Assembly (NCBI GenBank): GCA_963965975.1
Contig: OZ014417.1
Coordinates: 4,135,821 to 4,199,820, forward strand
Length of the DNA: 64,000 nucleotides
Source of the DNA: Xestospongia bergquistia
Taxonomy: Eukaryota > Porifera > Demospongiae > Haplosclerida > Petrosiidae
Direction of reading: 5' to 3'
Below, piece by piece: positions 6,755 through 63,643 of this stretch. The position numbers were made by a program, and so were the translations under genes. The notes beneath the pieces were generated by a model. The model saw only the letters and a program-made list of their open reading frames with translations. It searched no databases and was not told where the DNA came from. The first letter of the stretch is position 1, and the number at the start of each line of letters is the position of its first letter.

Positions 6755-6805
<51 letters not shown>

Positions 6806-7591
6806 GGATTTTGTAAAATAGCCCTCAAGTGATGTCTTTTACAAATTTATTGGCTTGTTAATATAATGCATGTATGACCTCTTACTTATGATATATATAA
6901 GACACACACGCATACAAATATATCATAGCTATGTAAAGGGTATTAATACAACACAGCTAATCACCTTTTTAATGTATGTTACTTTCAGCAACTAGTGGAA
7001 CCAATTGTACTCAAAGAGGACATGTTAGAAATACCACTTTATTAATCTCCATACCTGTTGGATCAGTTCTAGCTATAATAATTGTATTGGTCATTTTGGT
7101 TTTATGCATTGTGAGGACTATAAAGAGAAATAAAAATAAGAAGTAAATCATTAATTGTATTAATAATCTAGTATAACTCTAATTAGACAAAATCTGATTT
7201 ATGATGAGCCAGTTAACGTTCTTGCTCTAAATCAATTATCAAGTCATGATACAAATCCAACTGTTCCTATGAGGTCATTTACATTAAGGTTTGAATATAT
7301 TGTATGGAAAATTACGTTGGTTGATATATGTTGTACTCACAGAGAAGATGTAAGAACTGCTGAGAATGAATATGACATTGGACCAACTCAGGTGAATTAT
7401 ACTAATGAGGTCGGCATGTATAGGTCTACTTTGTGATAATGATATATGCTAACTTGTGTAGATTGAAGATTCCAAATTGACTGATGACAGAAATAGTAAT
7501 TGTTTCACAATCATATAATTATGTAATGAGTATTTTTATTATAGAGCATGATGAGTGTCATGATAAAGATGCTGAAGAAGAAATGAGCTGA
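1264..7591 (+). CDS. vWA-Ig-(FN3)9 transmembrane receptor (5' end outside window)
   Basis: Exons read from splice sites: 1264-1836 (vWA, with the MIDAS-type DASGS and a TDG), 1886-2224 (about 113 residues, beta-rich, family not recognised), 2279-2593 (Ig domain with paired Cys, W and a YTC motif), then nine FN3 exons: 2655-2921, 2970-3257, 3307-3594, 3645-3935, 4019-4306, 4351-4641, 4682-4969, 5024-5314, 5370-5657. After a 1.3-kb intron, 6989-7142 encodes a stalk and about 23 hydrophobic residues followed by a basic stop-transfer (RTIKRNKNKK). The tail exons are 7187-7288, 7343-7391, 7462-7495 and 7545-7591, with motifs YDEP and YDIG. Introns between extracellular exons are all phase 1, the usual pattern of exon-shuffled adhesion proteins. 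The vWA exon starts mid-codon, so a signal-peptide exon is missing to the left. It is probably a surface adhesion or recognition receptor; the ligand is unknown. Reading through the donor at 7391 gives an alternative tail ending near 7436. Confidence 0.85.
6217..6303. repeat. Short inverted repeat, MITE-like
   Basis: TTAGTCTCATCCCC at the left is mirrored by GGGGCATGAGACTAA at the right, with one mismatch, about 85 bp apart end to end. It may be a tiny non-autonomous element or a hairpin; target duplications are not clear. Confidence 0.35.
6759..6800. repeat. (AT)n microsatellite
   Basis: An uninterrupted run of AT dinucleotides, about 21 units, in the long intron before the membrane-span exon. 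Confidence 0.9.
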
Positions 7592-8006
7592 GCAACATGT
7601 GAAAAGAAACTTACTCTTTATATAATAGTGTTAAATACATTAGTTTAAATTAGTTTGACTTGACAGAGTTACTAGTTGCTGACTGCTTACTTTGCCTACA
7701 GTTATTAACCATGTGGTGTATTGTCCAGACAGCAGTTTTGTTTTCTTGTTTTTAAATTTTTAAAATAAGAATTTTTTTGCTTTTAGTTCTATGTCCTGTA
7801 TGAGATTACCAAGCAATGCCCAAATTTTAACTGAAGACAACCATCAACATAAAAAGCTGTTTTTTTCAAGTGATCAACTACTTAAACTTATTCATGACTT
7901 CGTTATTTTATCCATGTCCACACATTTTATTGTTAGTGGGGTTCCCTAACAAATTTTTAGACTGTTAGAATGAACAATCTTCTGCCAATTAGTTTCATTT
8001 ATCATT

Positions 8007-8174
8007 TGTAATGTCTGTGCTTACTATTGACAAAGATTTATTGGGATAATAAACAAGGACACAGACACAAAACAACCTCGAGATAATAACATGAGGAACC
8101 AACACAACTGAGCATGCTATAACCATAATAATATTCATATATAATTATTAGTAACACAATTAAGATCCACTACA
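8007..8174 (-). repeat. 3' LTR of gypsy element 1
   Basis: A 168-bp terminal repeat with TG...CA ends, matching 11329-11496 with a handful of substitutions. The TCATT duplication lies just outside it. Confidence 0.92.
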
Positions 8175-8262
8175 CTCCTTCCTTCTTACAAAAAGAAATG
8201 AAACAACAATACATGATAGAATGTATAAAAATGCACTAACTATTATCCCATGACTACAATTG

Positions 8263-10304
8263 TCAAAAGTATCGATCTGGTGGATGACAAACTCGTTGAG
8301 GGTAACGTCGAGTAGTGTTGGTTGCACAATTGTCTGAATTAAATGTCTCGGATTCACTACATGACCAATGAGGACCAGTATTCTGATCTAACTGAGATTG
8401 AGGTTCTGGAAGGGTGACATGACTAGGATATTCCCAGGTGTCATCAAGTTCAGTACTTTGACCTTTACTCAGTGATTGGTCCACATGACGTTTCCAAATG
8501 ATCCCGTCTTCGATTTCAACCAGGAACGTAACATCACCCTTCTTCTCCACAATTTTGCCACTAATCCATGATGGGTCGTTACCACGATAACTACGAACCA
8601 TGACAATGCTGCCATACTTCAAATTGCCTGAACTGTGAATGAGTGTCATGATTACTCTTCTGTAGACCTTGTTGATTACGAACTTTAGTTTCTGTATTAG
8701 GTTTCAGCAAGTCTAGTACAGTTCTTAAAGGTCTTTTTAACATTAGTTCAGAGGGAGTTTTGCCAGTTGTTGAGTGTGGAGTTTCTCAGTAAAACAATAG
8801 AAAATTCAAGAGTGTATACTGACTAGTGTGACCTTCTTTCTTTCCTTTCTTAAGAGAATTTTTTAGAGTTTGGACCAGTCTCTCTACAGCACCATTTGTT
8901 GATGGGTGATATGGGGCTGACTTGAAATGTTTAATGCCGTTGCTACGAAGAAAAATAGCAAACTCATTAGAGGTAAACTGCTGGCCATTATCAGACACCA
9001 GCTGTTCGGGTAGGCCAAAAACAGAGAAAATGTGTCTTAGAACTTCAATTGTAGCTGTAGTAGACGTAGATGATACTTCCCAGATCTCTGGCCATGATGA
9101 TGATCCATCAGTTGCTAATCGAATAGGGAGTAAGGGATTATAATGGATGAGAACATGAGAGGAGGTCAACTTTTCATTGGCCTCTTGTACTGCCTTTGTA
9201 CATTCTTCAGACCACACACATTTACAATTCTTTTGCAGTAGGCTGTTGAGGGGTTGTAATGTAGATGCTAAGTTTGGTATAAATTTGCCATAATAATTAA
9301 CTAAGCCTAAATAGGCTCTCAATTCAGTGATATTCTGAGGTTTGGGTGCATTCACAATTGCTTCAATTTTGCCTGGGGTAACATGCAAACCTTCACTATC
9401 AACAATATGGCCAAGATACTCAACATGATCACACATAAACTTACATTTATTTTTCTTCAACGTGATTCCATGATATTGTAAACGTCAGAGTACTTCTTCA
9501 AGATTGGTGAGATGTTCTTGGTCGTCAACTCCTGTTATTAGTATATCATCAATATAGCAGATAGTATGAGGTATCCCTTGTAAAATAATGTCCATAGTCC
9601 ACTGAAAAATAGCAGGAGCGGAGGGAATTCCAAAAGGCATTCTTGTATATTGGTAAAGTCCATGATGAGTGTTGATGGTGACCTGGCCTTTGGATTGATC
9701 ATCCAGCAACATTTGCTGATATGCCTGAGATAAATCTAGTTTTGTGAATTTCTTACCTCCTAATACAGAAGCAAATAGTTCTACAGGTTCTAGTAATGGG
9801 TATTGGTCAATCTACAATGATGGATTAAGCGTGACCTTATAGTCACCACATATACATATAGAGCCGTCTTTTTTGGGAACAGCAACATTAGGTGCTGCCC
9901 ACTCACTAAATACAATAGGCTCAATGATTCCAGCTGACTGGAGCTTGTCAAGTTCTCTCTCTATTCCATCTTTTAAGTCCAAAAGGTACAGGACGAGGGC
10001 GCCAGAACTTGGGGGTAGTATCAGGTTTGAGACGTAGTTTTGCAAAATACTGAGACATAGTTCCCAGAGTATTACTGAATACCTTTGAGTACTTGTTGAT
10101 TAATAGGTCTACTCCACTGATGAGGGATGTATGCAATATTTCATGCCAATTTAGGATGAGATCACTCAACCAATTTCGTCCTAGTAGAGCTGGTCCAGCT
10201 CCTTCAACAACTACTAGATCCAGTTCGACTTCTTGATCCTGGTAATTTACATGAACAGTGATTTCTCCTACTACATTCATCATTTCTGAAGTATACATCT
10301 TCAA
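8263..10304 (-). pseudogene. pol: Gypsy element 1 pol (frameshifts and large deletion)
   Basis: In order on the minus strand: retropepsin end (about 10304-10130), reverse transcriptase with the C-Y-I-D-D-I-L active-site motif near 9545-9565, and RT connection (9200-9460). Then the RNase H start (A-T-D-G) jumps abruptly, near 9095, into the second half of the integrase core (V-S-D-N-G, then the catalytic Glu region of S-T-N-G-A-V-E-R). The rest of RNase H, the HHCC finger and the first integrase Asp are missing. Several frameshifts divide the gene. The C-terminal piece (8263-8649) is the integrase tail. Confidence 0.88.
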
Positions 10305-25087: not shown

Positions 25088-26328
25088 AGTTTTATCAGAA
25101 AAGACAGTTTGCTAATGACTGTCATATAAGAGGGGAAATCTTACCAATTAAGAGAGTAGGAAGAGTTTTTCAGACTCAACTATAACTCAACTTTTTATAT
25201 GCTGTCTTATGACTCTAATAGTATCACCAGTTAATGATGTATACTGACTTGGGTTAGAATGAAGTAGATGACTTTGACCACAATTAAGTAAGAGTATGCG
25301 TTCATCTTATATATTGAGTGATAGGTGATGTGATATGCATGTGTACACACATGTATAAGTTTGTAGGACTGGAATGTAACATATCACTATAAAAATTAAT
25401 ATGTTATTTTAACAACTATTTTGTAGCCTACACAGGTGGATGATGATCACTATGAAATCTATAACTATGGAATCTAGAATTTATCTGAATAATTCACTCT
25501 ACAAATTGTTGCTATGCAAAATTAGAACATACCAACAAATTGCATAGTGAGCTTTAGATTCCATTATAACCCCATCCATGTAAGCTACAAGTTGGTTGTT
25601 AAAATAACTGAAGAATTTTACAATGATAGAGTTACTTTAAGGGGACAACAGTACACAGTAATTAATGTAAACTCATCTCATTTCTGAATCATTTTTAGAA
25701 ATCTTTATAATAATTTAAGCATTGAATTTTTATGGCCTTTCCTTGATGGTTATATGTATAGTCCGAATATTGACTACTGTAGCTGTGTGTAGCCAACAAA
25801 GCAATTATATCTTCTTATATAAATATGGTCCAGAGACGTAGTCCTCGTCCTTTCAATTTTGATAAGCTGACGGGCGGTGAAGGTCTACAGAGGCATATCG
25901 CCTCGTTGGAATCTGAGTAAAGTGGGGCAGTACCACAAAGTTGTCATAGTGGTTGTGAGCATTGTTATTAGGTAGCCATTTTGGAAAACTTGGTAGTTAC
26001 ACTATAACTTCTAAATATGTGCGGAAGTTAATTTTGGCATAATTTTTTACTGATCTGTTGATGAGAGCCTAGGCCTACTCTGAAGTTATAAAGATGGACA
26101 GAATAGCATTGCAAGTTGAAAAAAATCACAACAAACTATTTGCCTGATTCGCAGTTATAACAATATTCATTAACCACTATGAGAATATAAATTGTCCCAC
26201 ATTCCATACATTCCAATGTGGCAGCGAACCAAGTTCGCTAGACCATCCTACGTTCGTCAGTTCATCAAAAAGGAGGAGAGGCTAGCTCGCTAGACTATAT
26301 AAAGATATACTGCTTCCTCTTAAATGTA
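25088..26328 (+). repeat. Duplicated block, copy 2 (intron of receptor paralogue)
   Basis: Matches 1-1247 closely throughout and stops abruptly at TAAATGTA (26321-26328), where copy 1 continues into the vWA acceptor. The break coincides with the start of the inverted-repeat element at 26329. The block contains the same tail-like 16-codon exon (25427-25477). Confidence 0.92.
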
Positions 26329-26410
26329 GAGTAAATTACACAAGAACGGACAGATCACTTTCGGCCGCATCTAGCAGGATAAACTACCAAGAGAATTGGC
26401 ATTTCTAAAA
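26329..26410 (+). repeat. Left terminal inverted repeat of the pogo-type element
   Basis: Begins GAGTAAATTACACAAGAACG. Only a few differences from the reverse complement of 37845-37926, including GGACAG versus GGACGT. Weaker homology continues to about 26760. Confidence 0.8.
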
Positions 26411-27267
26411 TACTGAAATGAATTTCGCTGTTATCAAAACACATTTAAGGAATTATAAAAGATTCAGAAAGCTCCTCTGAGCAGAGACAGTCTTTTCAAA
26501 AAAAAAAATCGGAAGCATGGGTGCGCGGACAAGTATCATGTAAATTCATCCAGTTCCTCAAACTCCTTGAAGAACAAAGCTGAGCAAGAGAACTATAGTC
26601 GTTGCTATCAAGTACTGACTGAGCTACAACAGTATACTCAAAGTTCTACTTTCTGTTAACTGATGAGAGTTTCTCGACAAAAATTAGTTGAGTAGGTGTG
26701 GTTGATAAAATCGTCCACGCTTGAAGGTGCTTTTCTGGGCACGCATTTAGATTGATTGCTTTTAAATGATTACTGAATTATTGGTTCAGAACTTATTGTG
26801 TTTCACTATCTGTAACTGCAATCTATTCATAACTTAATTATATTTACTAATTTTTCAAATTCTGAATAATACCTGATAATGGCTGATTACTAATAAGTTC
26901 CTCGTATAGGTAATTTTTGTCTTATCCATTGTTATTATTGATTGATCTATTTATAGTAGTCTCATAATCCAAATATATTGTCTACAGTCATAAGCTATGG
27001 CTACTTTTATCAAGTAATATGTGAACTATAAAAGTCATACAATTAAAACTTTATTATCTGAAAACAAGTTGTTGTTCAGGAAATCAGCTGAATAGGTGTG
27101 GCCATGATTATTCACTAACACATATAAGTAGGTAATGTATATTATAATAAAGTAAAGGTTGTTAAAAGGTTCAATGACAACTGACAAGGCGTTACATTAT
27201 GCAAGGATATATGGTAACATGTACTCAGTTTTTCAGGTGGTCAATTGAAAGTTTCATTAAATGATAT

Positions 27268-27443
27268 TCAAGAGTTTGGTTCATCTAGTTTAGATAGATT
27301 ATCACATAGAGAACAATACCAAGTCCCTCTTGGTTTTCTCTTAAGATTAGCATGTTTAAAATGCCACCAGCCAATTGAGCAATTTGCATTGTCACAATAA
27401 ATCATTCTGCCAAACTCCTCCTGCCTGCAAATGCAGTACTTTT
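27268..27443 (-). CDS. PHD-finger last exon of the pogo-type gene
   Basis: Joins in phase to the 84-nt exon. It encodes 58 residues ending at TGA 27268-27270: Y-C-I-C-R-Q, M-I-Y-C-D-N-A-N-C, W-W-H-F-K-H, then W-Y-C-S-L-C. This is the C4HC3 spacing of PHD fingers of the ING-like class, with His in place of one expected Cys (H-F-K-H-A-N-L). Such domains read histone H3 tails; here it might guide integration-site choice, which is inference. Confidence 0.85.
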
Positions 27444-30400
27444 CTACATTAAATATTATTGCAAGTGAGCAATATATGTGTTATAAATACCTATTGGAGA
27501 CTCAACAATGGTTGTCTTTTGAAATTCAGAACTTGTCTGAAACTGAGAATGTGTCAGAGACTGAGTACTAGGGGCTAGATTATTATAACAATGAATAATA
27601 TAAAAGATAACAGATAAACTGACCTATTGAAGACTTAACAGAGGTTGCCTTTTGAGACTGAGAAAGTTTCCGAGACTGAGTGCCAGAGGCTATATTATTA
27701 TAACAGTGAATAATATAAAAGAAATAGACAAACTGACCTATAGGAGATTTGACAGTGGTTGTCTTTTGAGATCGAGAATGTGTCCGAGATTGAATACTAG
27801 AGGCTAGATTATAATAACAATAAATAATATAGAAGATAACAGACAAACTGACTTATTGGAGACTCAACAGTGGTTGCCTTTTGAGATTGAGAACATGTCC
27901 CTAACATAGTACTAGAGGCTAGATTATTATAACAATGAATAATAGAAAAGATAACAGACAAACTGACCTATAGGAGACTTGACAGTGGTTGTCTTTTGAG
28001 ACCGAGAACGTGTCTGAGATTGAATACTAGAGGCTAGATTATTATAACAATGAATAATATAAAAGATAACAGACAAACTGACCTATTGGAGACTTGACAG
28101 TGGTTGCCTTTTGAGACTGAGAACATGTCCCTAACCTAGTACTAGAGGCTAGATTATTATAACAATGAATAATAAAAAGATAACAGACAAACTGACCTAT
28201 TGGAGACTTGACAGTGGTTGCCTTTTGAGACTGAGAACATGTCCCTAACCTAGTACTAGAGGCTAGATTATTATAACAATGAATAATAAAAAGATAACAG
28301 ACAAACTGACCTATTGGAGACTTGACAGTGGTTGCCTTTTGAGACTGAGAACATGTCCCTAACCTAGTACTAGAGGCTAGATTATTATAACAATGAATAA
28401 TAGAAAAGATAACAGACAAACTGACCTATTGGAGACTTGACAGTGGTTGACTTTTGAGACCGAGATTGAATACTAGAGGCTAGATTATTATACCAATCGA
28501 TAATATAGAGGATAACAGACAAACTAACCTATTGGAGACTTGGAGATACCTGCAGCACCTGATGTGGTATATAAACTAATTCAATAAATTAACACTATAC
28601 CTTCATTTAAACTGTTCTCTAGTTCTTCAGGCATTGTAAACAATGAGCAACCTATAACCACAGTATAATATAACAGTACCATCATTGATACTGGTTGAAA
28701 AGGTGCTACACTTAAGATGAAATTATGCAAATACCTACCTTCAGTGGGATCGTTTGATGTAGATTGAGAACTGCTAACAGGGGCTGAACCAGTACAGGAC
28801 TTTTTAGAGCAAGAACTTTCTATAACAATATTGAGGAATCGTAATTTGGGTATGTCATTCTCACTTTTTTTTAACTGAGCTATCCTAGCTTGATCTAATC
28901 AAAGTAAGAATGTGTAAGTTGCAGTATCTATGTATATATTTACTTCTTTTTTCTTTTTTTCTTCCTTCCTTCTCATTTCTTCAATTGCCATACGATTCTC
29001 TGCACTTGTTAAGACTTTTCCAGACTTCTTTTGTGGTATAACTGGAAGCTTACAAAAGGGTAATGATCTTTCTTCTTCTAAAATCTTTGAAAAAATGGAT
29101 GATTTTTGAAGAACTGCACATTGTGAAGGTTGTTCAGGAGGATGAAAGACAAAAGGTTATGTATTACTTTCAGCACTTGCAGTGGAAGGACAACTTTGAA
29201 AACGATGATCAAATGCTGGCACAAAAAATGGAAAATATGAAAGAGTGTCTTGTGGGTAATATGGGTATCTAGTATCTGGTGGGTAATGTGGGTATTGATA
29301 AAACATACGAGTGTTGGCATCATTAGCAACTGTGTCATTGTGGGAGAATTGGGAACTCAAATCAAGCTCTTGATCAACGAATCCACTACCATCATTAGTT
29401 GATTGATGCTTTTTTTTCCATTGGTTATAACGATCATCAGAAGTAATATCATAACCATCTTGAAACCTTTTTTGAAATCTTGATTCTTCCTCTTCTGTGA
29501 ATACAGCTTCTTGAGTAATGGGAGGCCTGTATCTTCGTGCAGGGCTATATAGTGCTATAAATTTCAGCCCTGTGCGCTGTGCAAGTGTGCTTGTGGCATC
29601 TTTTCTTGATGGAACAATAGCATCCCTGTTCAAGGGGAAGATTCCTGTATATTTGAATCCAGCTTGAATATTTTTCATCGTCATTGCACATGCCCATGCC
29701 TCACTAAATAGTTTTGAAAAGGTGAATCTTGTGACTACCTTGCCAGGATTATCCACTAAAAACTTTCAGCATACCTGCCTCCATGAAGACTTTAATGGTC
29801 CAAATGGACCTTTATCCAGAGGCTGGGTTTCATGTGATGAATGTGGGGGTAGACAAAAAATGATCACTTTCTCTTCTGCTGCCTTATTAATTACTGAAGG
29901 ATTATAGTGTGAAGAATGACCATCGAGTAGGAGTAGAATTGGTCGTACAGTTGGGGCATAAGGCAAAAAATGATGGACGACCATAAATCAAACAGTTCAC
30001 TATTGATCCACCCGGATTCTGAGAGACCATACATAGTCCCGGGGACTTCTCCATCAACCATTGCTTGTTTCAGACACTTTCGGTCAAATATCACAAAGGG
30101 TGGCATGCAATATCCAGCAGCATTACATGATGCAAGAACTGTAATCTGTGTTTTATTTCCAGTTGTTATTGCTCTTGGATGTTTGACACCTTTAGCAGTC
30201 ACACCCTTTGGAGGTTTTGGATCTAGTGGCATTCCAGTTTCATCACAGTTGAACAATTGGGTGGGCTTTGAAACAAGGTCATTTTCCTGAATTGTTTGCT
30301 CTAAAATATCGAAATAATTACTCAAGACGTCTGGGGTGCAGGCTGAAGCACGATTGTTAGCAATTTGCTCAGTAATTCGGAGAGAAAGTTCTGAATGTCG

Positions 30401-30822
30401 TTTCCTGAATCCCTCCCACCAACCGCTAGAAACTGTCACATTCCTTCCTTTTCTATCAACTGTAGCTTGTACTATCGATATCACTTCCTTCCTTGTACGT
30501 GGAAATCCTATTTTTGCAGTTTCCAATAAAAATGTTACCAGCTCTTCTTCTTCTTCATCTGTTAGATACTTTTGACCACTCTTGCTACCACTTAAAACTT
30601 TTCCCGAAACATGATCTTGAATAGTAGATTTAGGGATTTGATACTCTTCTGCTGCCTGTCTCAAAGACAATCCACTCTCAACTGCTTAACATGCTCGTTC
30701 TAAGTTTTCAGAAGTCCAAGTTTTATATTTTAGAGGTCGAGCAGAGCAAGATTGTGGAATATCATGTGTGAACTTGGATGAATAGAGTACACGCCCACTA
30801 AGAGGAAGTGATTTACTTGCCA
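27268..30822 (-). CDS. Pogo-type transposase with tandem-exon linker and C-terminal PHD finger (lesions in the transposase part)
   Basis: ATG at 30822. Exons: 29168-30822, 28944-29113, 28739-28874, 28601-28651, 28529-28549, then nine repeat exons from 28426-28479 down to 27491-27574, and last 27268-27443. The N-terminal psq/CENP-B type helix-turn-helix (L-S-L-R-Q-A-A-E-E-Y, S-T-I-Q-D-H) is followed by a DDE domain with three Asp (N-C-D-E-T-G; L-L-D-G-H-S-S-H-Y; P-L-D-K-G). Next come a Lys/Glu-rich coiled stretch, the Ser/Thr/Gln-rich linker, and a PHD finger (C-I-C ... C-D-N-x-N-C ... W-H-F ... W-Y-C-x2-C). The large exon has TAA at codon 46, a one-base loss near 29980 and a TGA near 29772, so this copy is probably inactive. 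The eleven exons from the 51-nt exon to the PHD exon are fully open and in phase. Confidence 0.75.
27491..28479 (-). repeat. Array of nine tandem coding exons, 114-115-bp unit
   Basis: Exons at 28426-28479 (54 nt), 28311-28376, 28197-28262, 28083-28148, 27968-28033, 27853-27918, 27738-27803, 27624-27689 (66 nt each) and 27491-27574 (84 nt). Introns are 48 or 49 nt. Every exon begins with two bases that complete a codon and ends with one base, so any number can be spliced in frame. Each encodes about 22 residues of the type S-S-T-R-L-G-T-C-S-Q-S-Q-K-A-T-T-V-K-S-P-I. Indels occur in the introns without regard to frame, whereas exon length changes only by multiples of three. Confidence 0.85.
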
Positions 30823-30887
30823 TTTGATGGAACACAAAGACTACAGATAAGTACGTCAATTATAGATGAATAACATACACAACCTAC

Positions 30888-31075
30888 CTATCAGAGATTT
30901 GTTACTAGCTGTCTTGAGATATTGAGAATGTGTTTAAAAGAGAGTACTTGAGTTAAAGTGAGACACTAGGTGTATAACAACATCAAAGGAAAATACAAAA
31001 GGAAACTGACCTATTGGAGACTTAATACCTTTTCAGATAGAGAATGTATTTGAGTTATTATAGCGATAATGTCGG
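30888..31075 (-). repeat. Two decayed exon-array units upstream of the transposase
   Basis: 30888-30946 and 31011-31075 resemble the repeat exons (ending TCTCTGATAG and TCTCCAATAG, followed by GT) but contain stops in the required phase. They lie 5' of the transposase start, on the opposite side from the main array. Confidence 0.6.
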
Positions 31076-32908
31076 TTGATGCAGGATAAGTAACACTATA
31101 GAATTTAACTCTATATGTACTTGGTTGCCCAGATCAAACATTTGAAGACTGATCTAAACATAAATGATTGTAATAATCTAAGTGTAGCAGCAGTAGACAA
31201 AGTTATAGTTGAACAAAATTTATTCAACAAGAGGCTATTACAACACTAGTGCATTAAGGACTAGGTACATCCACTTTGTTCTTAAAATAGTAATGTACAC
31301 TTGTAGATCTCATTGGGTTTGCCAAGGATTTACAAATAGAATGACACCACAAATGACAATGACATAATATATGCTAGTCCCTATGCTTGTATAATTTGGC
31401 CTTAGATTTAGATATATAACTATTATAAGCTAAACCATCATTCACTGCAAAATTTTTGAAGAATATTTGTGAATTTTGCAAACTTATAAATTGTACAATT
31501 TTATGATGAGAGCGATAGGAAATTCTTGAAAATTTCCACTTGCAAATGCTCCCAAAGAAGTTATTTGTCAAATATTCTTCCTTGAAAATTAGGCAGTGTA
31601 TGGTGTTATCCTGCTGTAATCTTGTCAGTGCTGGTCACCATCACAACAAAGGCCCTTTTTGGGCTAAAATATTACTAAAAAGTCATATGGGGAAAGTCCT
31701 AGGCTATTAATATGAAAGCTGTAACTTGCTATTGCACTTTTGGTTTTCTAATGGCAACAAAAAGTGAAAAGACCTTAACATAAAAATTATGGTTTCTTCA
31801 CAACTACAAGTCTGATAAAGCTCTCCAGTTGGTTTTGCCATACTTGAGAACACTGCCAATAACTTTAGCACTTCAATCAGGTATATCTCAAATAAGAAAG
31901 CAGACATCAATAATATGTAAGTTAATTAGCCTCAACTCTATCAGATGGCTATTCTAGTTTTCCTTTAAAGTATTGGGAACATTGTCATAGTTAATTATTT
32001 TATTATGGAAAATGTTTCTTTTGAAGGTATGTGCATGAATATCTTGAATATGGATGTAAGAGAGATAGGAAAATCTCCAAGGTGTCTTATGAGATGTTTT
32101 ATACTTATGGAGACAACTAGTGTTGTTTTAGTAGACATAAGGTGTTTTAGTTTTAGTTTAGCTATAGCAAAAGGTAAAATTTATTTTTAGTTATAGTATT
32201 AGTTATATAGTATTAATACTAATTTTAATTTAGTAGTATTAGTTATAGTATTAATGTGAAATTTGATTTAGTTATAGCATTAGTTATAGTCATATTTAAC
32301 AAGCAAACACTTTTGTTTTCTTCAGGAAGATACATACTCCACTTTTTCTTGGCCTGCCAGGACCAGCTGCTATACTAGCTGTAAGCATGCTTTCTAGTTA
32401 AACTTAACTATAATAACTAGAAAATCACTCATGCATGGAAGGTTAAATCCACAAACAACTCAGATATGCACTACCTAACATGATAATTATGTTAAATGCT
32501 TTACACATTCTATGTGGTTAGTAACTAATATAATTGAGGTTATTTACTATAGCATTAGTTATAGTTCAAAGGAAAGTTTTAATTTTAATTTAGTTATAGT
32601 AACATTTGAAAAAAAAATTGTTATAGTTTTAGTTATAGTTAACTAAAATTTTTACTCTCTACTAAAAATATTTTAGTATTAGTTATAGTTAACTAAAACA
32701 ACACTAGAGACAATGAACATCCAAATAGGTGTTTTGGCAAAAAATGTTAATTTTAATTGTCACTCAAGCTCAGGCAATAATTTGAGACGTCAAGGTGAGT
32801 ACAATTATACTTGAACCAATTACTCAAGCCACTATAATACAGTAGTATTAGCATTATAGACTATGTGACATGCTACAAATAAATCTATTGAGTATCTAAT
32901 CTTATTGT
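31076..32908. other. Non-coding stretch with low-complexity TAGTTATAG repeats
   Basis: No gene seen. 32105-32300 and 32540-32700 are rich in variants of TTTTAGTTATAGTATTAG. The interval lies between the transposase gene and the gypsy insertion. Confidence 0.6.
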
Positions 32909-33156
32909 TGTGGTGACCGAGTGAAGAATTATAGAACCGGCTATGGTACAACTAACAACCGACCCAACGACAATAGTAATAATAAAGATAACTATAACAA
33001 TTGTAGCAAATAATACAACTAATGACAACTCATGACAACTGACAAAATACTAAAAGCATGCGGTATTTATATCGATACATGACGTAATAATACACAATAA
33101 TGAATATATAATTATACATGTAGTTCAATGTTTATCAAGTTACCTAGTATATCACA
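32909..33156 (-). repeat. 3' LTR of gypsy element 2
   Basis: 248 bp, TGTGATATAC...GGTCACCACA in the element's sense. Nearly identical to 37220-37467. Confidence 0.96.
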
Positions 33157-33167
33157 CTCCTCCCTCT

Positions 33168-36100
33168 TTAGGATGAAATATACGGGCCAAAACGCTCAGG
33201 TTGTCTTTTCTCTCTATTCGAGCGACGTAACAACGGTGTTGTACGAATATTGGCAGGTGATGATACTGTAACTGTAGGAGGTGTAAAGTTTTGGGGATGT
33301 CTTACAATGGGAGAATCATCAAAATTGTCCTGATCTTTGTTTCCAATTTGTAGTTCTTTGCTGTCAGTACATCTGGAACGAAGTTGATCAACATGTCTAC
33401 AGATGACAATACCACTCTTGGTTTCTACATGGTATGACACTGGACCTGTAATTTTGATTACTGTAACAGGAATCCATGCAGATGAACCTGAATAATTTTT
33501 TGCATAAAGTTTGTCTCCTATTGAAAAGGTACGAATCTTTTGACGTGGTTGCTGAATTTTTTCTTGTTTCTGTTTAATTTTCTTTGGTATATCGAGGTGA
33601 AGAAGATCAAAAACTGTTCGTAGTCTTCTACCCATCAGCAATTCTGAAGGAGAGAGACCTGTAGTGGACTGAGGGGTAATACGATACTGTAGAAGAAAAC
33701 GGGAAAGTCTTGTTTCAAGTGGTCCATCCAATTTCTTTATGGTAGTTTTGAAGGTCTGTACTGCACGTTCAGCTAGCCCATTTGAGCGGGGGTGGTATGG
33801 TGAAGTAAGGGAGTGTCGGATACCATTTTTGTCCATGAATAGTTTAAAATCGTGACTGATAAATGCTGGACCATTGTCTGATACCAATTGTTGTGGTAAG
33901 CCGTGCATTGAAAAAATACGTCTAAGAATGTTAATAGTACTTTCAGCTGAGGTAGAGTTAACTACATGAACTTCCATCCAGCGTGAATAGGCATCAATGA
34001 GGAGGAAAAAATATTTGCCGAGAAATGGACCAGCATGGTCAACATGAACTCGGGTCCATGGAGTTGATGGGTATTCCCAAGGGTGAATAATTGTTTGGGG
34101 TGGAGTAGGAAGGTGCGTCTGACAGGTGTTGCAGTGTTTGACTACATTCTCAATGTCTTTATCTAGACCTGGCCACCATACGTAGGACCGAGCAAGGCCT
34201 TTCATTCTGCTGATACCAGGATGTTTATCATGAAGTTGTGAGAGAACATATTTTCTACCTTGAGGAGAAATAATGACACAAGAACCTCTGAGAAGGCACC
34301 CATCAATAACACTGAGTTCTGTATAACATTGCGTAAATGGTTGGAGTTCGGGGGAGTGTATAGATGATGACCAGCCAGTCAGAACAAGTCTACGGACACG
34401 CGAAAGTATGGGATCTTGGTCTGTCCATGTTTTGATTTGTGGTGCATGTATGACTGATTCTGCCAAATGGTTTAGTAGTAACTTAATGTCAGCTGGTATA
34501 GGAACAAATTTGGGTGTGTCTGGTAATGGCAACCTGCTTAAAGCATCAGCATTTGCTAACTGGGATCCTGGTTTATGTTTGATTGTATAGGAATAAGTGG
34601 AAAGGGTGATAGCCCATCTTTGTATACGAGGCGAGGTAGGTGTTGGTATCTGGTTTGATTCACCGAAGATGTAGTGGAGAGGCTTGTGATCAGAGTATAA
34701 TGTAAAGTTTCGTCCATACAAATAGTCATGAAATTTCCTTACAGCAAAAATAATTGCCAAGGCTTCCTTCTCCAATTGAGAATATTTCTTTTCTGTTGTG
34801 GTTAGAGTACGTGAAGTGAAAGCAATCGGTTTTTCAGTATTATTTTCCATCTGGTGACTTAGTACTGCACCTAACCCATAGGGAGAGACATCACAGGATA
34901 GGATGAGGGGTTTCTTTTCATCGTAATGGACAAGTAAGGATGAAGACTGAAGTAAGGATTTTGCTTGTTGAAAGGCTTTATCCTGTGTTTGGGACCAAAT
35001 CCATTTAGCATCCTTCCGGAGAAGTTGATGCAGTGGGGCTAGTATAGTAGAGAGATCTGGTAAGAACTTGTGGTAATAGTTGAGTAAACCAAGAAATTTA
35101 AGTTCTGTGACATTTGTAGGCGTTGGTGCATCTCTGATGGCTTTGACTTTCGATTCTGATGGATGAAGTCCATTTGCATCAATAATATGGCCCAAATATT
35201 CTACTGATGAGACCCTGAACTTGCACTTTGATTTCTTTAAGGTGAGGCCTGCATTTTCCAAACGTTGTAGGACAAGGTGTAAATTTTGGAGGTGGTCTGC
35301 TTCACTTGTACCTGAAATAAGAATATCATCTAAATAAACACAGACATGGGGTAAGTCACTTAGAAGGGTTTCCATGATTCTTTGGAAAATTGATGGAGCA
35401 GAAGAGATGCCAAAAGGTAGTCGTTCATACTGGAATAGTCCTTTTGGTGTATTTATGGTAGTGTATTTCTTGGAGGAGTCATCCAGGGGTACTTGAAGGT
35501 AGGCATGACTGAGATCTAATTTAGTGAAAATCTTGCCTCCAGAGAGAGCAGTGAAAAGATCATCCACACGAGGAAGTGGGTATGTATCAGGAATGAGAGC
35601 TGGATTTATGGTGACCTTATAATCTCCACATAAGCGAATTGATCCATCTGTTTTCACAATGGGCACTATGGGAGCTGCCCAGTCAGAGTGTTTGACTGGA
35701 GTAATGACTTGTAAGTCCTGTAGGTGCTGTAGTTCCTTGATAACCTTTTCTTTCAGAGAATAAGGAACCGGGCGGGCCTTAAAAAAACGGGGACGAGCCT
35801 CTGGATTGACTAGGATCTTTGCTGTAATTTCTTTCAACCGGCCAATGCTTGAAATAAAAACCGCTGAATGTTGATCTAAAACCTGTTCTAAGGTAGAAAA
35901 AGTGTTAAGTAATTTAATGTCTGACCAATTTATCTTGATTTCCTCAAGCCAGTTACGGCCTAGCAAAGTTGGACCATCTCCTGGAACAACTAATAGTGGG
36001 AGAGATGCACCTTGGGACTGGTAGTTGACTTGGACATTAATAGATCCTAGAGGAAAAATCTTTTCTCCTGTATATGTAGTGAGTGTAAAATTAGATGGAG

Positions 36101-36251
36101 TAAGTGGGCCTAAAGAACTTGACAAATTTGAGTAAGTTGTTTCACTAATAAGTGAGAGGGAAGCCCCTGTATCTAATTCCATGGGAAGGTCAACTCCCTG
36201 CACTTGAACTGTGACCACAATAGGTCTGGTCTTCCCTGGTAGTGTAAACAT
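33168..36251 (-). CDS. pol: Gypsy element 2 pol polyprotein
   Basis: An uninterrupted 1,027-codon frame. In order: retropepsin (E-L-D-T-G-A-S-L, about residues 27-34), reverse transcriptase with Y-L-D-D-I-L-I (about residues 308-314), RNase H (S-C-D-V-S-P-Y-G-L), integrase HHCC finger (H-P-G-I ... C-N-T-C), the catalytic core D, D, E (V-D-H-A-G; S-D-N-G; N-G-L-A-E-R) and a C-terminal GPY-like region. It makes the enzymes that copy and insert the element. It starts just downstream of the gag stop in the same frame; the first codons may be reached by read-through or by a fused ancestor. Its stop overlaps the polypurine tract. Confidence 0.95.
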   Translation of the reverse strand: MFTLPGKTRPIVVTVQVQGVDLPMELDTGASLSLISETTYSNLSSSLGPLTPSNFTLTTYTGEKIFPLGSINVQVNYQSQGASLPLLVVPGDGPTLLGRNWLEEIKINWSDIKLLNTFSTLEQVLDQHSAVFISSIGRLKEITAKILVNPEARPRFFKARPVPYSLKEKVIKELQHLQDLQVITPVKHSDWAAPIVPIVKTDGSIRLCGDYKVTINPALIPDTYPLPRVDDLFTALSGGKIFTKLDLSHAYLQVPLDDSSKKYTTINTPKGLFQYERLPFGISSAPSIFQRIMETLLSDLPHVCVYLDDILISGTSEADHLQNLHLVLQRLENAGLTLKKSKCKFRVSSVEYLGHIIDANGLHPSESKVKAIRDAPTPTNVTELKFLGLLNYYHKFLPDLSTILAPLHQLLRKDAKWIWSQTQDKAFQQAKSLLQSSSLLVHYDEKKPLILSCDVSPYGLGAVLSHQMENNTEKPIAFTSRTLTTTEKKYSQLEKEALAIIFAVRKFHDYLYGRNFTLYSDHKPLHYIFGESNQIPTPTSPRIQRWAITLSTYSYTIKHKPGSQLANADALSRLPLPDTPKFVPIPADIKLLLNHLAESVIHAPQIKTWTDQDPILSRVRRLVLTGWSSSIHSPELQPFTQCYTELSVIDGCLLRGSCVIISPQGRKYVLSQLHDKHPGISRMKGLARSYVWWPGLDKDIENVVKHCNTCQTHLPTPPQTIIHPWEYPSTPWTRVHVDHAGPFLGKYFFLLIDAYSRWMEVHVVNSTSAESTINILRRIFSMHGLPQQLVSDNGPAFISHDFKLFMDKNGIRHSLTSPYHPRSNGLAERAVQTFKTTIKKLDGPLETRLSRFLLQYRITPQSTTGLSPSELLMGRRLRTVFDLLHLDIPKKIKQKQEKIQQPRQKIRTFSIGDKLYAKNYSGSSAWIPVTVIKITGPVSYHVETKSGIVICRHVDQLRSRCTDSKELQIGNKDQDNFDDSPIVRHPQNFTPPTVTVSSPANIRTTPLLRRSNREKRQPERFGPYISS

Positions 36252-36281
36252 AGGGTAGTCCTTTGAAGTAGAAGGAGTGGC

Positions 36282-37165
36282 TCAGTCTGATGAGGCCTGG
36301 TCTTCTTCCATTAAGCAAGGCTCCAATTGACCTATAGTGTGAGTAGTGTGCTTGCAGGGTGGATCCTTAGAAGGTGGTTTGTAATTTTTCCTTCTTCCAT
36401 CCTGAGTTGAGGCTAGAGCTCTCTTGCTGCTTCGGCAAACTCTAGCCAAGTGACCTTTCTTTCCACAAGCATGGCATGTCCTATCTTGAAAATTACATTT
36501 ATTAGCGTAATGGTTACCACCACATCTAAAACATTCGAATGTAGCAGCTACTGTGGTGGGGCTCCGACCAGTTTTGTCCATCAACCGGTGAACAGCAACC
36601 GGTGAACAGCAATCGGTTTGAAGTTTTGTTGATGTTGTGTCTGAGTAATGTCTTGAAAATCCCTAGCTGCGATTTCCATGGTTTGGGCTGTTTCGAAAGC
36701 CTCTTTGTATGTTAAGTTAGGCTCTTGAAGTAATCTTCTTTGGATACGTGTGTCGTTTATTCCACAAACGAGTCTATCTCTAAGCATTAAATCGAATGTG
36801 TCACCAAAATCACAATGTTCTCCGATAGCACGTAATTCAGCGACATAAGTGGCAACGGATTCACCTGATTTTCTTATTCTTGTGTTGAATTTGAAACGTT
36901 GAACTATCGAAGATGGCTTAGGATTGAAATGTTTCTCAAGAAACTGTTTTAGTTCAGTATAGGTCTTTTCTTTCGGAGTGTTAGGTTGTACCAAACTTTT
37001 CAGTAGTTGGAATGTAGAGGGACCGCAAACAGTTAGAAAGATTGCTCTTTTAGTTTCTGCAGAGGTGACATTATTAGCTTCAAAATAGAAATCTAATCTT
37101 TCGGCGTACGAAGTCCATTGTTCCTTGTCTGGGTCAAATGAAGATATTGTACCGTGAGTTGCCAT
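36282..37165 (-). pseudogene. gag: Gypsy element 2 gag (one 14-bp duplication)
   Basis: ATG at 37165. The capsid-type region is followed by two CCHC knuckles (C-F-R-C-G-G-N-H-Y-A-N-K-C and C-H-A-C-G-K-K-G-H-L-A-R-V-C) that bind RNA. A tandem duplication of 14 bp near 36585-36612 shifts the frame between the capsid part and the knuckles; it is the only lesion I see within gag. The frame then ends in TGA at 36282-36284, and pol continues in the same frame. Confidence 0.88.
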
Positions 37166-37219
37166 TTCAGCAGAGTAGAAAAATAGAAAATGAAGTTTCC
37201 AAATTACCCTCGTCGCCAA

Positions 37220-37467
37220 TGTGGTGACCGAGTGAAGAATTATAGAACCGGCTATGGTACAACTAACAACCGACCCAATGACAATAGTAATAATAATGAT
37301 AACTATAACAATTGTAGCAAATAATACAACTAATGACAACTCATGACAACTGACAAAATACTAAAAGCATGCGGTATTTATATCGATACATGACGTAATA
37401 ATACACAATAATGAATATATAATTATACATGTAGTTCAATGTTTATCAAGTTACCTAGTATATCACA
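37220..37467 (-). repeat. 5' LTR of gypsy element 2
   Basis: Partner LTR; the differences seen are C/T in the CGACCCAA(C/T)GAC stretch and A/T in the AATAA(A/T)GATAAC stretch. It would carry the promoter for the gag-pol transcript. Confidence 0.96.
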
Positions 37468-37844
37468 ATTGTACCTTTCAGAATATCTGTGATGACGCTT
37501 AGTAGTCTTATCTGACTTCTATTGACACGTGCAAGTGTGGTCGAATAATCATAGCCCCACCTACTTAGCAAATTTCCTCTGAAAAATAACGATGTGTTAG
37601 CTGATTTAAAAAGTTTGATTATACTGTTGTAGTTCCATTGTTACTTGATAACAACAGCCATAGCCTTCTCGCTTTGCTTGGTTATTGAAGGAATTTTGGC
37701 GATTGAACGATTTTACATCATACTTGTCCGCTTACTGCTGCCTCCGAAATGTTTTTTCAAAACCTTGTCGCTATTCACAGAAGCTTGCTAAAACTTTCAA
37801 AGTACTTGGTATATTAATTAATCAGGTCGTAGTTTACAACAGTA

Positions 37845-37926
37845 AGTTAGAAATGCCAGTTCTCTTGGTAGTTTATCTTGCTAGATGCGGCCGAAAGTGA
37901 TACGTCCGTTCTTGTGTAATTTACTC
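37845..37926 (-). repeat. Right terminal inverted repeat of the pogo-type element
   Basis: The reverse complement starts GAGTAAATTACACAAGAACG, as at the left end. Weaker homology reaches inward to about 37490, close to the gypsy LTR. A (TC)n(TA)n stretch follows outside. Confidence 0.8.
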
Positions 37927-39799: not shown

Positions 39800-42700
39800 T
39801 CACTGAGTCACCTGAGATCCAGTGGATGTGAAGTCCCCATCTAAAAAGATTGGATATTAAAAAGGCTGACAAGACCAAACTTATAACAAGACTGTTATCT
39901 TGATCCATAATTATGCTATATGTAGTTGCAGTAAAAATTATCTCACATCCTTATCTTATGTTATCAATTGTTTAGAGAGTTTCATCAACTAGCTATGTGT
40001 ATTGTTTGTAAGTGATGCCATTTACTACTACTAGTAGTAAGTTTATACACAGTTAAATATAACACTAATTCAAAGCATTATTACAAGTATTGATTCTAAA
40101 ATGTTTAAGATAGTTATGCAATGAAATATCTAATGACTCATGCAATTATGAATTGACATAGAACACTACATAATAACACAGAAACATGGAATAAATATAC
40201 CTCCTTGTAACACATACTGTCGAACAGTAGTAGCCAGTGACTTATTTTGAAGAGATTCTTCTATAATATTGATGATGTTTCTCCAAGTAGTTGGGGTTGG
40301 CTGATTATTAAGCCAACTCTGAAGTGTTTTTGATAGCTTTACTTGATCTGATAAATTTTTAGCAAGTAAGCCATCAAGAGTATTTTCATCAACTCCAAGT
40401 AGGTCACCAATTTCATACCATTTAGAAGATATTGATGATAGATATTTTAGCAGTATATGTTTCTTTGGTTTTGAATCTATGACAATGTTGCAGGTATATT
40501 AATTGTAACAAAATTATTGGAACTCATAAAAAAATTAAGATACATGTCATTAGCCTTACTAAGCAAACAAGCATCTGAAAAACATATTCAAATCTACTTT
40601 TAGACAAGAAATTGATTGATTTTAAACTTAATAATAACTTTAGTGCTAGCTTGGTTAGTATTACATTTATATTGTTGTCATAGACTATAATATTTGTCTC
40701 TGAGATCATGTAGAAAATTATGGAATTATAAATCCATTACAACAATCCTAAATGACTTCTTTATTCAATAAAATCTGCTTTGCTTTTTTTGTTAAATGAC
40801 AATAATAGTAATGTCTCATAAAGGTGGTATACAAGTTGTGAATAAGGTCCTTTACATAGTTTAAACACTAAGAATGTCTAAGTATTGTTGTATAAAAGTA
40901 GTTTCATACTTACCTAAAGTAGCTGTGTCATCTAATGTTTTAGGCTCTAATTAGAGATATTATTTAATACAACAAGGACCATTAACACTATACTAACCAT
41001 TAAAATGGAGTTCCTCAGATATAATTTGTATATCCTCTTCACTTAATGAAGGACAAGCAAGATCCTATAACATAGAACAGAGTGTGGTGTACTAAGTATG
41101 ATATGGTACAGAATGTACTGTAAGTATGATAGAATATAGGATAAGTATGATTCAATACAGAATGTAGTGTAAATATGACATAATACAGAATGTAGCGCAA
41201 CTATGATACATGACAATAGACTTATAGAATATTTCAACTAACTTATACTTACCAAAGGATTACGTCCAGCAAACACACTGAACTGACTGCAACGCTCCTT
41301 TACTGACTTATGATTAAATGATACAAGTGATGACGAGAAATAAGAACACTTTTCCACTATGTGTCTAAGGTGGTCATCTCGAAGTGGTAGCTCATCATTG
41401 AATAGTGCTTTTGTTACTAAAGGAGCAATGCAAAGAAAAGGATCATGAGCTCCCACAACCTGCTTGATGTCCACCTTCTTGGTATACTTGTCATCACTAA
41501 CATTACATTTTCTAAGCACTGATCGAGCAATGTCTTTGATATTATAAAGTGTTCGCTCGCTGACAAGAAGACTACGAGCTTTTGCTACATCACTAGGAGC
41601 AACGAGGTACTCCTCACATTCAAATGAGTGCATTTGACTCTTCAATGTTAATATGACCTGAACAACGTCATTGAAAACTTTGTGGCTTTTCTTGATATCC
41701 TCCATTGATGTAACTATTGTAACACAACGATAGTGCTCAGTTACTTCAACAATAACTTCAACGTCATCATTCTCCCAATAAATGCCATTTGTCCATACAT
41801 GACAGCGACGAGTTAACATTTGAATTTGTGGATCACTATCAGCAATTTTGCCAGCTTTTTTATGTATTGGCAGACAAAAAATGCAAGAAAGTCTAAAAAG
41901 AAGGAGATGAAGAAATCTTGTTGAGAGGAATTGGTTAGGATCAGGACACCAGAGACACCATCCTAATCCATTTTCTATTACAATATCTGTTGGTGGCTCA
42001 GTATAAATGAGAGATGGAAAAAACAAGAGCTCATCTGATGGCTCATCTGATGGAGCTGAAATATTGGTTTCGAAATTTAGTGTATTTGCTTTTAAAACAT
42101 GACAGAACTGAAGACTTCTAAGGAACCCAATTAACATATGAGTATTATGCTTTGGAAACAATTTCTGCAGAATAGTCCTAGGCACAATACCGGTATTACT
42201 AGCAATTTTCTGATGAGCACGTTGAATTTCTTTAGGAGCAAATAGAACACCATTGACTTCAGTGATAAGGGTAGCTCTGTCAATAACAATCCAACTTTGA
42301 GCATCATCCTCATTTTTAAGAAATAAGATGAGACCCTTGTCACTTAAAGTGGTTAGGAATTCCAATAGCACTGACCTATCAGAAGGAAGAGAAGGGTCGT
42401 CACGCTTTTGTAACACATCACATAGCTCCTTCAGGCTAATGGCTACAATATTCTCTTCCTTTCGAAGCAATTGCAAAAAGGAAAATTGAACATGGCAATA
42501 GAAACTAATTTTATCAGATTGATCGAGTACAGCTTTGCAGCTATAAGAAAGCATAGCAACAAATTCTTTAACACCTTTTCCTCCAGGACGATGACATTCC
42601 ATAGGTAGGAACCCACGATATTCTTGTGAATGGTCAGCTTTTGCAGCGACTTCAGCAACTACTTCAGAAATTTTCTCATAAGCATCATTTATCTCATCAC

Positions 42701-45700
42701 GTCGACTTCCAATGACAAGTATTTGAGATGGCCTTGATAACTGAAGACTGGCATTCTTTATAAAATTGAACCAGTAGTACAAATCTCTTTTAATGACATC
42801 TAGATTGTCAGTCATCTTAGAAAGTATGACAAAAACAGCAGGTGTGCTTAGCATAAGATTTTCTAGAATTGCTGAATGACTGCTATAATACTCCTTATGA
42901 CCTGCAAGGTCATAAAGGACAATATTTCCCACTTCATGACTTGTAATTGTATGTGCATTAATACCAGTAGTTAGCAGTTCTACTGGAATAGGATCAGATG
43001 TATTAAACTTGTAGTTAGGTGGTTTGTTAGCTCGTTCCATAATGACTGCAGCAAGTGAACTTTTACCTGCACCAATATTACCACAGAAAAAGACTTTGCT
43101 GTAGGAATCCACAGGGAAGTCTTTTCGACACTGCTCAAATGGCTCAAACATCTTTAAAATATGGAAGCGATCTTCATCCTCTTGATAAGCAAGCTCCATG
43201 GCTGTTTGATTATGCCTGTTCTTCGCTATTGGGTTAATCTTTCCTGATGACAAAAGAGATTTCACAACATCACCATGACAACCCATACAGGCAGCATGAA
43301 GGGATGTGTTACCAAACTAAATAAATAAAATGTATTAGTAAGTAACATTCTATATAGTTTGTTATATCAATCATTGTGCATGCAATAAGCCCTAATTGAC
43401 AGGGTATAATAACTTAACATTCACTGATGACACAAGTCTATCAATCTGAACCCTTCATTTTGCTGATATGAAACAAGAGTCTAACAAACATTAAAATAAA
43501 TTAAATTTCAATTGACAAATCAGATTTCATTACCCAGATTCTGGGTAGCATGGTAACAAAAAGTAGCACTATGTTGTATAGACTCAAGTATATCTTGTTT
43601 GTACAAGGTCAGAGTTTGTTGGTGGTTGCTATAAAATCAAAACTGTTTACAACACTACAAGTCAGTATATGTTTTTTTTAAATCCCTTAATCTTTCTATA
43701 GTAAACAACATGCTTTGAATGGAAACTTGCAAAGAATGTATGTCCTATTTGCTTTCAATTATTGTAATAGGTTGAAGTTCTTAAGTGACCTTTGCTAGAC
43801 CCTTTCTTGTGTATTAGGAAAGAAAAGGGTCTACCTCAATAGCCTATGAAAATGCTAAATAAATCAGTAATCATTGTAAATGAAATAACTCAATTTAATA
43901 GTAGGAAGGTAAGATAAACATTAATAAGTTTGAACATTTGAGCAATGTATACACAAATAGCTAAGACCGTTTGAATGTACAATAAAAAAGTAATTAAAAA
44001 CATTTTGAAAAAAATGAAAGATGATGCAGTGATGACGATGTCAAAAAAAAGGAAACAAAGTAGGGTTGACATACAAATTCACATTAAAATTCCTACATAT
44101 GTAGCCAGGAAAAGCAGTACAGTACAATTTCAATATATACACTATATACTCTTTCATTGCATCTACTGAATTTATAGATGTAAAGTACTGCCATACTGAC
44201 TGGCTACTTATGTAGAGATTTTTAATTTATGTGTTCATCCTACTTTGTTTCTTTCCTTTTTTGCAATATCTTTAAATTTCTCAAATGTTTTTTATAACTT
44301 GTTTTTTATTACCTCTCTACTGTAATGTTAAAATGACTCAGACAATAAATTGCTTTATACATCACATAGTTTGGCTCTTGAAATGAAATGTATTGTTATT
44401 AGAACTAACATAAGCTACAAATCATTAAAAATAATGATAATTTCAATCTTGACAGGTGAAAAGATTAAACTCAGCAAATCCAGTGAATGTAACTGACTCC
44501 ATGATTTAATAGTTTGCATTCACTGATGCAATTTAGCAGACTCCAGAAACATTTTATAAATGTATCAGAATGTTGCTTGATGGTTACATGATTGTGTAGT
44601 TACTTTATATGACTTTTTTAAAGTAACATGGTTAAAATATTTTAGGACATAGCAATGTTAACTGCACCATAATCATTTAATGTTTAAACAAAACAAATAT
44701 ACAACAAATAAAGGTTATAGTATAAATGACTTAAAACTATTTGAATAAAATATAGTATGCTACCTTGTAACTACAACAATCATAAAATATTTCAACATGA
44801 TGTTAAACCAAAGTGAATAGTAAGATTTGTTTTCTGTAATAGTATCTTAAATTGTGACATGAAACCAAAACGTTAAAAGTGTCAACAAACCATTGATAGT
44901 TAGATGATTGTATAGTTGCTTTATGTTATATGCTTGGAGTAAGCTGGTTAAACCATTTTAGGACATAGTATATGTTATATAGGAATCTTGTTTGGTGAAT
45001 AAACAATGAAATGATATTCACAACTTACCTGGTCAGCAATGTCAGGGTTAGCACTGAATGTGAGAAGAAGCTGAACACATTCATTATTGCCTTCCTTAGA
45101 TGCTATGTACAAAGCAGTTTGCCCATCCTATACATATGTAAAAGGACAAATAAACATTGCTGATACTAACCAGTTGAAAGTGTGGGCAAACCACACATTA
45201 TCAGATAAAAGGCTATAATAATTCTATAGTATTATGTCACAAAAACATTATAACCCAACCAGCAATGCACTGTATTTACACATACTGTGTGCCTTGAGAA
45301 AAATAACCCACAAGTTTTGGCCTTGTTTTATGTCATTGCCGAGTGCCTTAGCGCGAGGCAAATAATCGTGCGTCGCATATCGCAGATAGTTTGTATGTAT
45401 GCATGTATGTGTCACGCTTGAGAATGCAATTATTTCAGTGCAACGCGCAAATGTATGCTCACGTGCTCCTGAAATGGCACTGTTGCTATTATTCTCCAGC
45501 TGTGCATGGAATCATGTGTGCTATCTTCCCTGGCCCAGCTATTTTAACAGAAAGATAAAAATAATATCTGCATACAAAAATGTATGCAATTCACTGCGCG
45601 AGGCTCTACACTGCGTATACGTATGTCTAGTAGTGTCTGTACTATCACTCAAATTATGTACATATTACAAGTTGGCATACATTGTTTCCAATATTAACAT

Positions 45701-63640: not shown

Positions 63641-63643
63641 ATA

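Follow-up and report, generated by a model that had tools for sequence, protein, structure and literature searches.

Introduction

DNA transposons of the pogo superfamily measure 1.2–5.2 kb in a published survey (PMC7386202), a range that describes the elements surveyed and sets no strict pogo criterion. The main text of that survey does not use the words "PHD", "intron" or "exon" (0 occurrences), and in the literature searched, which included few subscription journals, neither a PHD finger nor an exon array is described for any pogo element as far as the available text of the articles goes (PMC7386202, PMC7325037, PMC10027918, PMC6446971 and PMC9013439). The transposase of Rehavkus, which is treated as the outgroup of the MULEs with 9-bp target duplications, combines a PHD finger with a minisatellite located within or close to the C-terminal end (PMC6446971, available text). 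Tandem duplication of exons is known from host genes, often in the form of mutually exclusive exons (PMC9013439, available text).

The window, a 64,000-nucleotide stretch of the genome of the sponge Xestospongia bergquistia, contains a pogo-like transposon in which a run of short exons lies between the transposase and a PHD finger. With a probability of roughly 0.7, we read this array as a predicted spliced linker, length-tolerant and weakly constrained, that would have grown by unequal exchange in a sponge pogo-PHD transposase gene. The element resembles Rehavkus in having a PHD finger plus a C-terminal repeat on the transposase, but the minisatellite of Rehavkus is not described as exon-intron units in the available text of PMC6446971. 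As in the tandem exon duplications of host genes (PMC9013439, available text), exons are repeated in tandem within one gene, here as exon-intron units that keep their splice sites and phase; unlike them, they sit in a mobile element and form many short units with phase 1 at both ends (1-1).

Element boundaries and superfamily assignment

The initial annotation had placed the feature at 27268..28874. The array and the PHD finger are indeed found there, but the element extends far past these limits:

26329..37926, minus strand, complete pogo-like DNA transposon, with 21-bp tips identical at both ends
26329..26642, unstranded, 3' terminal inverted repeat (self-comparison and sister-copy comparison)
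37614..37926, unstranded, 5' terminal inverted repeat (self-comparison and sister-copy comparison)
32909..37467, unstranded, nested LTR retrotransposon (self-comparison; missing from sister copy L011)

Once the nested retrotransposon is subtracted, the window element is ∼7.0 kb long, with inverted repeats of ∼315 bp that are 75% identical. The sister copy L011 (6672 bp, or 6.7 kb; positions 1679-8350 of the joined contig) aligns with it from end to end, except for the LTR insertion and ∼300 bp around the start codon. Pairs of inverted repeats were found in the window, in L011 and in L022, a copy of a related family (family B, see below). The left flank of the window element carries TA at 26327-26328, and on the right TA is followed by GAGAGA before the tip. 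Among the pogo-like copies, TA lies beside the tip at 21/24 of the ends listed, in place of the 9-bp target duplications of Rehavkus; it is present at both ends of L022 and at the left end only of the window copy and L011.

The TA target site, the terminal inverted repeats, the HTH_psq and HTH_Tnp_Tc5 domains and the DDE_1 domain, with its 35-residue Asp spacing in sister copy L013, place the element in the pogo superfamily by its sequence features. It differs from the surveyed members in size, since L011, the window element without its insertion and L022 (5385 bp) all exceed the upper end of the survey range (PMC7386202, available text).

The nested retrotransposon is 4.56 kb long and is present in the window copy, not in L011. 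Its LTRs (32909-33156 and 37220-37467) are 99.2% identical and flanked by a 5-bp target duplication, ATTGT. It looks young and contains a 1037-aa open frame at 33168-36281.

Exon structure of the window copy

All exons lie on the minus strand and are given in the order of transcription:

30888..31060 (right edge approximate), minus strand, two unit-like exons upstream of the transposase ATG, recognized by eye
28944..30823, minus strand, transposase exon with HTH_psq, HTH_Tnp_Tc5 and a weak DDE_1 (profile matches)
28865..28894, minus strand, exon 2a, 30 nt, phase 1-1, predicted boundary
28739..28819, minus strand, exon 2b, 81 nt, phase 1-1, Ser/Thr rich, predicted boundary
28601..28651, minus strand, exon 3, 51 nt, phase 1-1 (sister-copy alignment)
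28529..28558, minus strand, predicted exon 4, 30 nt, a half unit that opens the array (ends ...KSPI)
27491..28479, minus strand, array of nine unit exons (exon scan, Tandem Repeats Finder)
28479-28426, minus strand, unit exon 1, 54 nt
28376-28311, 28262-28197 and 28148-28083, minus strand, unit exons 2-4, 66 nt each
28033-27968, 27918-27853, 27803-27738 and 27689-27624, minus strand, unit exons 5-8, 66 nt each
27574-27491, minus strand, unit exon 9, 84 nt
27268..27443, minus strand, terminal exon with an ING-type PHD finger and the stop (structure-relative search, Pfam)

The nine phase-1 exons of 54, seven times 66, and 84 nt reported in the initial annotation are present, as are their introns of 48-49 nt, with GT-AG boundaries in 9/9 cases and a stop in the phase-1 frame of 0/9 exons. 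Tandem Repeats Finder scores the array at 1415 with a 115-bp period (8.9 copies) and at 1499 with a 229-bp period. The array joins the pogo-type transposase to the PHD finger, as had been proposed; all three are on the same strand and inside the inverted repeats of the element.

The description of the gene as open throughout applies to the array exons but not to the transposase, which contains in-frame stops at three places, with ends at 30686, 29766 and 29157, as well as a frameshift near 29980. Thus, the window copy is dead and represents an inactive relic. Its Pfam matches to HTH_psq (8e-7) and HTH_Tnp_Tc5 (1e-4) are both above cut-off; DDE_1, in a 264-aa piece, remains below it (18.3 bits compared to 22) because the reading frame breaks there. 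In L013, DDE_1 is detected with an E-value of 9.2e-22 and includes a DDD triad with 35 residues separating the last two Asp; HTH_psq is also found (2e-9), and HTH_Tnp_Tc5 is absent at an E-value of 0.01.

A single exon 2 of 156 nt was considered and rejected. The 45-nt GT-AG stretch following exon 2a contains TGA in 10/15 of the copies that align there, and two exons, 2a and 2b, separated by what fits a 45-nt phase-1 intron describe the region better.

Of the two unit-like exons upstream of the ATG, the one at 30888-30965 runs into the ATG in phase 1; it carries a stop in the window and is open in the five other copies printed. As unit-like exons also occur 5' of the ATG, the transposase exon itself appears to lie within a 1-1 exon array. 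Such flanking on both sides would be expected if the array and the PHD finger came from a host gene hit by a transposon, and the genome may contain host ING genes, to judge from weaker PHD matches located in long open frames. This origin is scarcely credible, however, and we have rejected it: the array and the PHD finger lie within the inverted repeats of the element in both the window and L011, and they travel with the transposase in many copies.

The PHD finger

The closest solved-structure relatives of the terminal exon are PHD fingers of the ING family (ING4, E-value of 1.1e-13), and the Pfam PHD model matches it below cut-off (E-value of 0.0035). Most sister copies retain the full ligand pattern CxC...CxxxxC...HxxC...CxxC, whose ligands show losses in L068 and L063. 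In the window copy, the sixth zinc ligand is changed from Cys to His (HFKH). HFEC is found at this ligand in 17/18 other readable sequences and NFEC in L068, with L013 and L062 unreadable there. Compared to the PHD fingers of the ING family, the finger described here is joined to a transposase and, in the window copy, has one altered zinc ligand. It retains a Tyr, a Met and a Trp, which we take to be the cage residues of the H3K4me3 pocket, and by its similarity to the ING family it may be a histone reader.

Sister copies and array length

The genome searched comprises 146 Mb in 21 contigs, the window being located on contig C7. A search with the transposase protein gave 148 matches, 11 of which, besides the window, are 94-98% identical over residues 1-236, and a two-unit DNA query gave at least 290 matches. 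We scanned 22 unit-bearing sequences, including the window itself (L064). By the exon scan, whose counts are lower bounds, 15 independent copies, the window among them, have 8-16 unit exons; L012 has at least 46, and L037 and L038 have one or two units each. Identity between copies in the sequence outside the array is mostly 94-99%, L037 and L038 being more distant. Given arrays of 8-16 or at least 46 units between such similar flanks, array length changes fast. The proposal that the linker grows by duplication of whole exon-intron units is supported by these numbers, and also by a second array family and a similar Amphimedon protein (see below).

Length variants were counted in 17 copies, after removal of the near-duplicates L020, L043, L044 and L067 and of the expanded L012. 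Exons of 66 nt occur in 17/17 copies and the 84-nt exon in 13/17, with introns of 46, 48 and 50 nt in 8/17, 15/17 and 3/17 copies, respectively. Length variants common to several copies are mostly intronic. Exons that break the frame were nevertheless sought and found in 6/17 copies (L045, L048, L055, L056, L062 and L063). A 67-nt exon is common to two copies at a matching unit, and a 65-nt exon occurs in three copies whose unit sequences differ. Nine exon length changes outside L012 are confined to single copies; the frame is lost in six of these and kept in the other three (54, 69 and 75 nt). In L012 / L070 (G000:C1:17598201-17603676), 12 of the 46 exons are 67 nt long and the transposase is broken. 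Exon lengths that change in multiples of three, as initially described, are therefore a feature of the window copy but not of the family, and the frame-breaking exons in the other copies count against the argument for selection that had been built on them. The array of L012 resembles a minisatellite-type expansion after insertion.

These counts bear on a different reading, which we consider unlikely but the most serious competitor: the array would be a disappearing minisatellite, left from a C-terminal extension that was once coding but has fallen out of use in intact transposases, and it would expand and decay as DNA, its splice signals and frame persisting only by descent. The largest array, with its frame-breaking exons beside a broken transposase, is what one would then expect; the shared length variants, falling mostly in introns and not in exons, are not.

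Related families and other sponges

Family B comprises 15 loci with ∼80% identity to the transposase, 9 of which contain open frames of 639 aa. Its copy L022 has inverted repeats that are 99.5% identical over 403 bp. The array and the PHD finger are absent from L022, the sole family B copy read end to end; a local search for PHD fingers or units found none in the extended L022, nor in L084 downstream of a relative with 54% identity. The combination of intact open frames in family B with a copy devoid of array and PHD finger is a further point for the unlikely reading of an extension that the transposase can do without and that is now decaying.

In family A, to which the sister copies belong, the open transposase frame of L013 is 666 aa long and continues into intron 1, and the printed 639-aa frame of the family B copy L021 likewise extends beyond the exon-1 donor. 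Since these frames pass the donor and L022 is without array and PHD finger, a short transposase without linker and PHD finger is a plausible second product of family A. None of the family A copies with printed frames (L011, L012, L013, L015, L017 and L018) has a clean transposase-to-PHD frame.

A second family, with a transposase ∼54% identical, contains a different array. In L085, this array has a 96-bp period and 3.7 copies, and is situated between the transposase and a PHD remnant. By eye, its unit consists of a 54-nt exon encoding a KQPTASQVSTRGHSKSND-type unit and a 42-nt intron, in phase 1; one unit contains a stop, and the copy is decayed. Five loci contain the 96-bp array; all have a transposase match nearby in the same orientation, and 4/5 have a listed PHD match, the structure of the array having been read in L085 alone. 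Also upstream of the PHD remnant of L085, at 1438-1710, are a 30-bp tandem repeat of the GLDDTEIDNV type and then a Cys-rich finger-like stretch.

The animals named among the listed transposase relatives are Amphimedon and Dysidea. A predicted protein of Amphimedon queenslandica (LOC109582507 isoform X4, P0036) consists of a transposase, Ser/Thr repeats and an ING-type PHD finger; its linker contains, by eye, four Ser/Thr repeats of ∼17-22 residues. At the level of the protein, from which it is known here without exon structure, P0036 has the same layout as the window element, with different unit sequences. The predicted Dysidea avara protein P0105, also compared as a protein only, is alike in its transposase and PHD finger but differs in the Lys/Glu linker between them, which is devoid of such units. 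These two were the only matches among 120 listed relatives (2/120) to a PHD pattern that is itself incomplete, as it missed another Cys-rich finger-like C-terminal stretch in P0028 (10 sequences inspected). P0118 has a Ser/Thr/Lys repeat after the transposase. For many of the 120 proteins, the source may be one in which introns are not modelled. When the Amphimedon linker-plus-PHD region and the Dysidea PHD finger (a single candidate) served as protein queries, each retrieved itself only.

The similar layout in the distant L085-type family and in Amphimedon argues against an array that persists as decaying DNA only. In a broader and quite doubtful proposal, tandem 1-1 arrays would be a fast-evolving, splicing-controlled spacer between transposase and histone reader that arose, once or repeatedly, in two or more families from unrelated units, and exon count and skipping would set the coupling between integration and chromatin.

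Coding constraint on the repeat

The transposase itself has a dN/dS of 0.14 between families A and B and of 0.46 among A copies. The initial annotation had also proposed that the repeat is constrained as a translated sequence, with dN/dS among the units as a check. The window units have a ratio of 0.80; in 19 further arrays, of which four are near-duplicates, it ranges over 0.97-1.86. Values near or above 1 such as these speak against the selection argument. Bootstrapping pN/pS for the window units gives an interval of 0.42-2.17, and pN/pS in the phase-1 frame (∼0.82) compares with 0.61 and 0.81 in the wrong frames, which are thus no higher. Third codon positions vary least among the window units (0.139, compared to 0.180 and 0.192). 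The ratio of nonsynonymous to synonymous changes is 33:9 for widespread variants and 28:7 for private ones, with ∼2.5:1 expected without selection. Purifying selection on the repeat, sought as proof of function, was therefore not found by dN/dS, by frame comparison or by variant classes, and, with the frame-breaking exons of other copies, the claimed constraint is not supported. As the sister copies are decayed, all such counts mix constraint in the lineage with decay after insertion.

A once-coding extension that decays as DNA would show just such values, with a dN/dS around or over 1 for the array units and of 1.18 for the PHD finger (14 copies, 50 codons; near-duplicates were excluded, as were copies whose PHD is broken or cut) and with widespread variants no less nonsynonymous than private ones. 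It accords poorly with the rarity of in-frame stops, which are found in 10/136 unit exons of the 17-copy set, compared to 42/136 and 98/136 in the other two frames. These are whole-exon counts; single-base classification overcounts stops, some of the real codons being TGG. The rare in-frame stops, the mostly intronic shared length variants and the position of the upstream TGA inside a GT-AG interval fit translation of the array in an ancestor.

Divergence within the window is higher in exons (0.152) than in introns (0.042 without the first intron, 0.064 with it). Over 17 copies, per-site variation is 0.163 in exons and 0.094 in introns (p 0.13); a faster change of exons is thus suggestive in the window and not significant over the larger set. 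An adaptive device, in which the number or the skipping of exons tunes linker length and phosphorylation and the units may be under diversifying selection, could account for the excess in the window. Most exons are 1-1 symmetric, so that skipping would preserve the frame, and the Amphimedon homologue is labelled isoform X4. We nevertheless regard such a device as very improbable, given the lack of significance over 17 copies, the wide bootstrap interval of the window and the absence of the array from L022. A tuned, phosphorylated, alternatively spliced linker is unsupported.

A model for the pogo-PHD gene

Of these readings, we favor the length-tolerant, weakly constrained linker. In intact ancestors, splicing would join the transposase to a flexible linker of 22-residue units, rich in Ser, Thr, Gln and Lys, and to a C-terminal ING-type PHD finger. 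Unequal exchange or slippage could add or remove units with the frame kept, because the ancestral exons would be multiples of three between phase 1 introns. Such frame-neutral gain and loss would let linker length drift quickly between copies, and the residues of the linker would be weakly constrained. Reading through the first intron would instead yield a shorter transposase of ∼640-660 aa without linker and PHD finger, and family B seems to persist in this short form alone.

The pogo elements of the survey are compact (PMC7386202, available text); here, the gene has predicted introns, a finger of the histone-reader type and a linker that appears to duplicate exons. Linker growth by whole-exon duplication is suggested in two diverged families and mirrored in the predicted protein of another sponge. 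The many copies with different array lengths in one genome provide a natural series for following the expansion, decay and loss of an exon array, and are suited to testing whether the PHD finger of a transposase steers integration.

Other features of the window and genome

Equal-scoring pogo-like copies recur in blocks on G000 C5, C6, C7, C10, C13 and C15, mostly ∼110-215 kb apart, which suggests very long tandem duplications. In the window, a 143-bp AT-rich satellite is present at 57289-60410 (∼22 copies) and at 63190-63641 (∼3 copies), and an open frame of 692 aa is located on the minus strand at 41238-43316.
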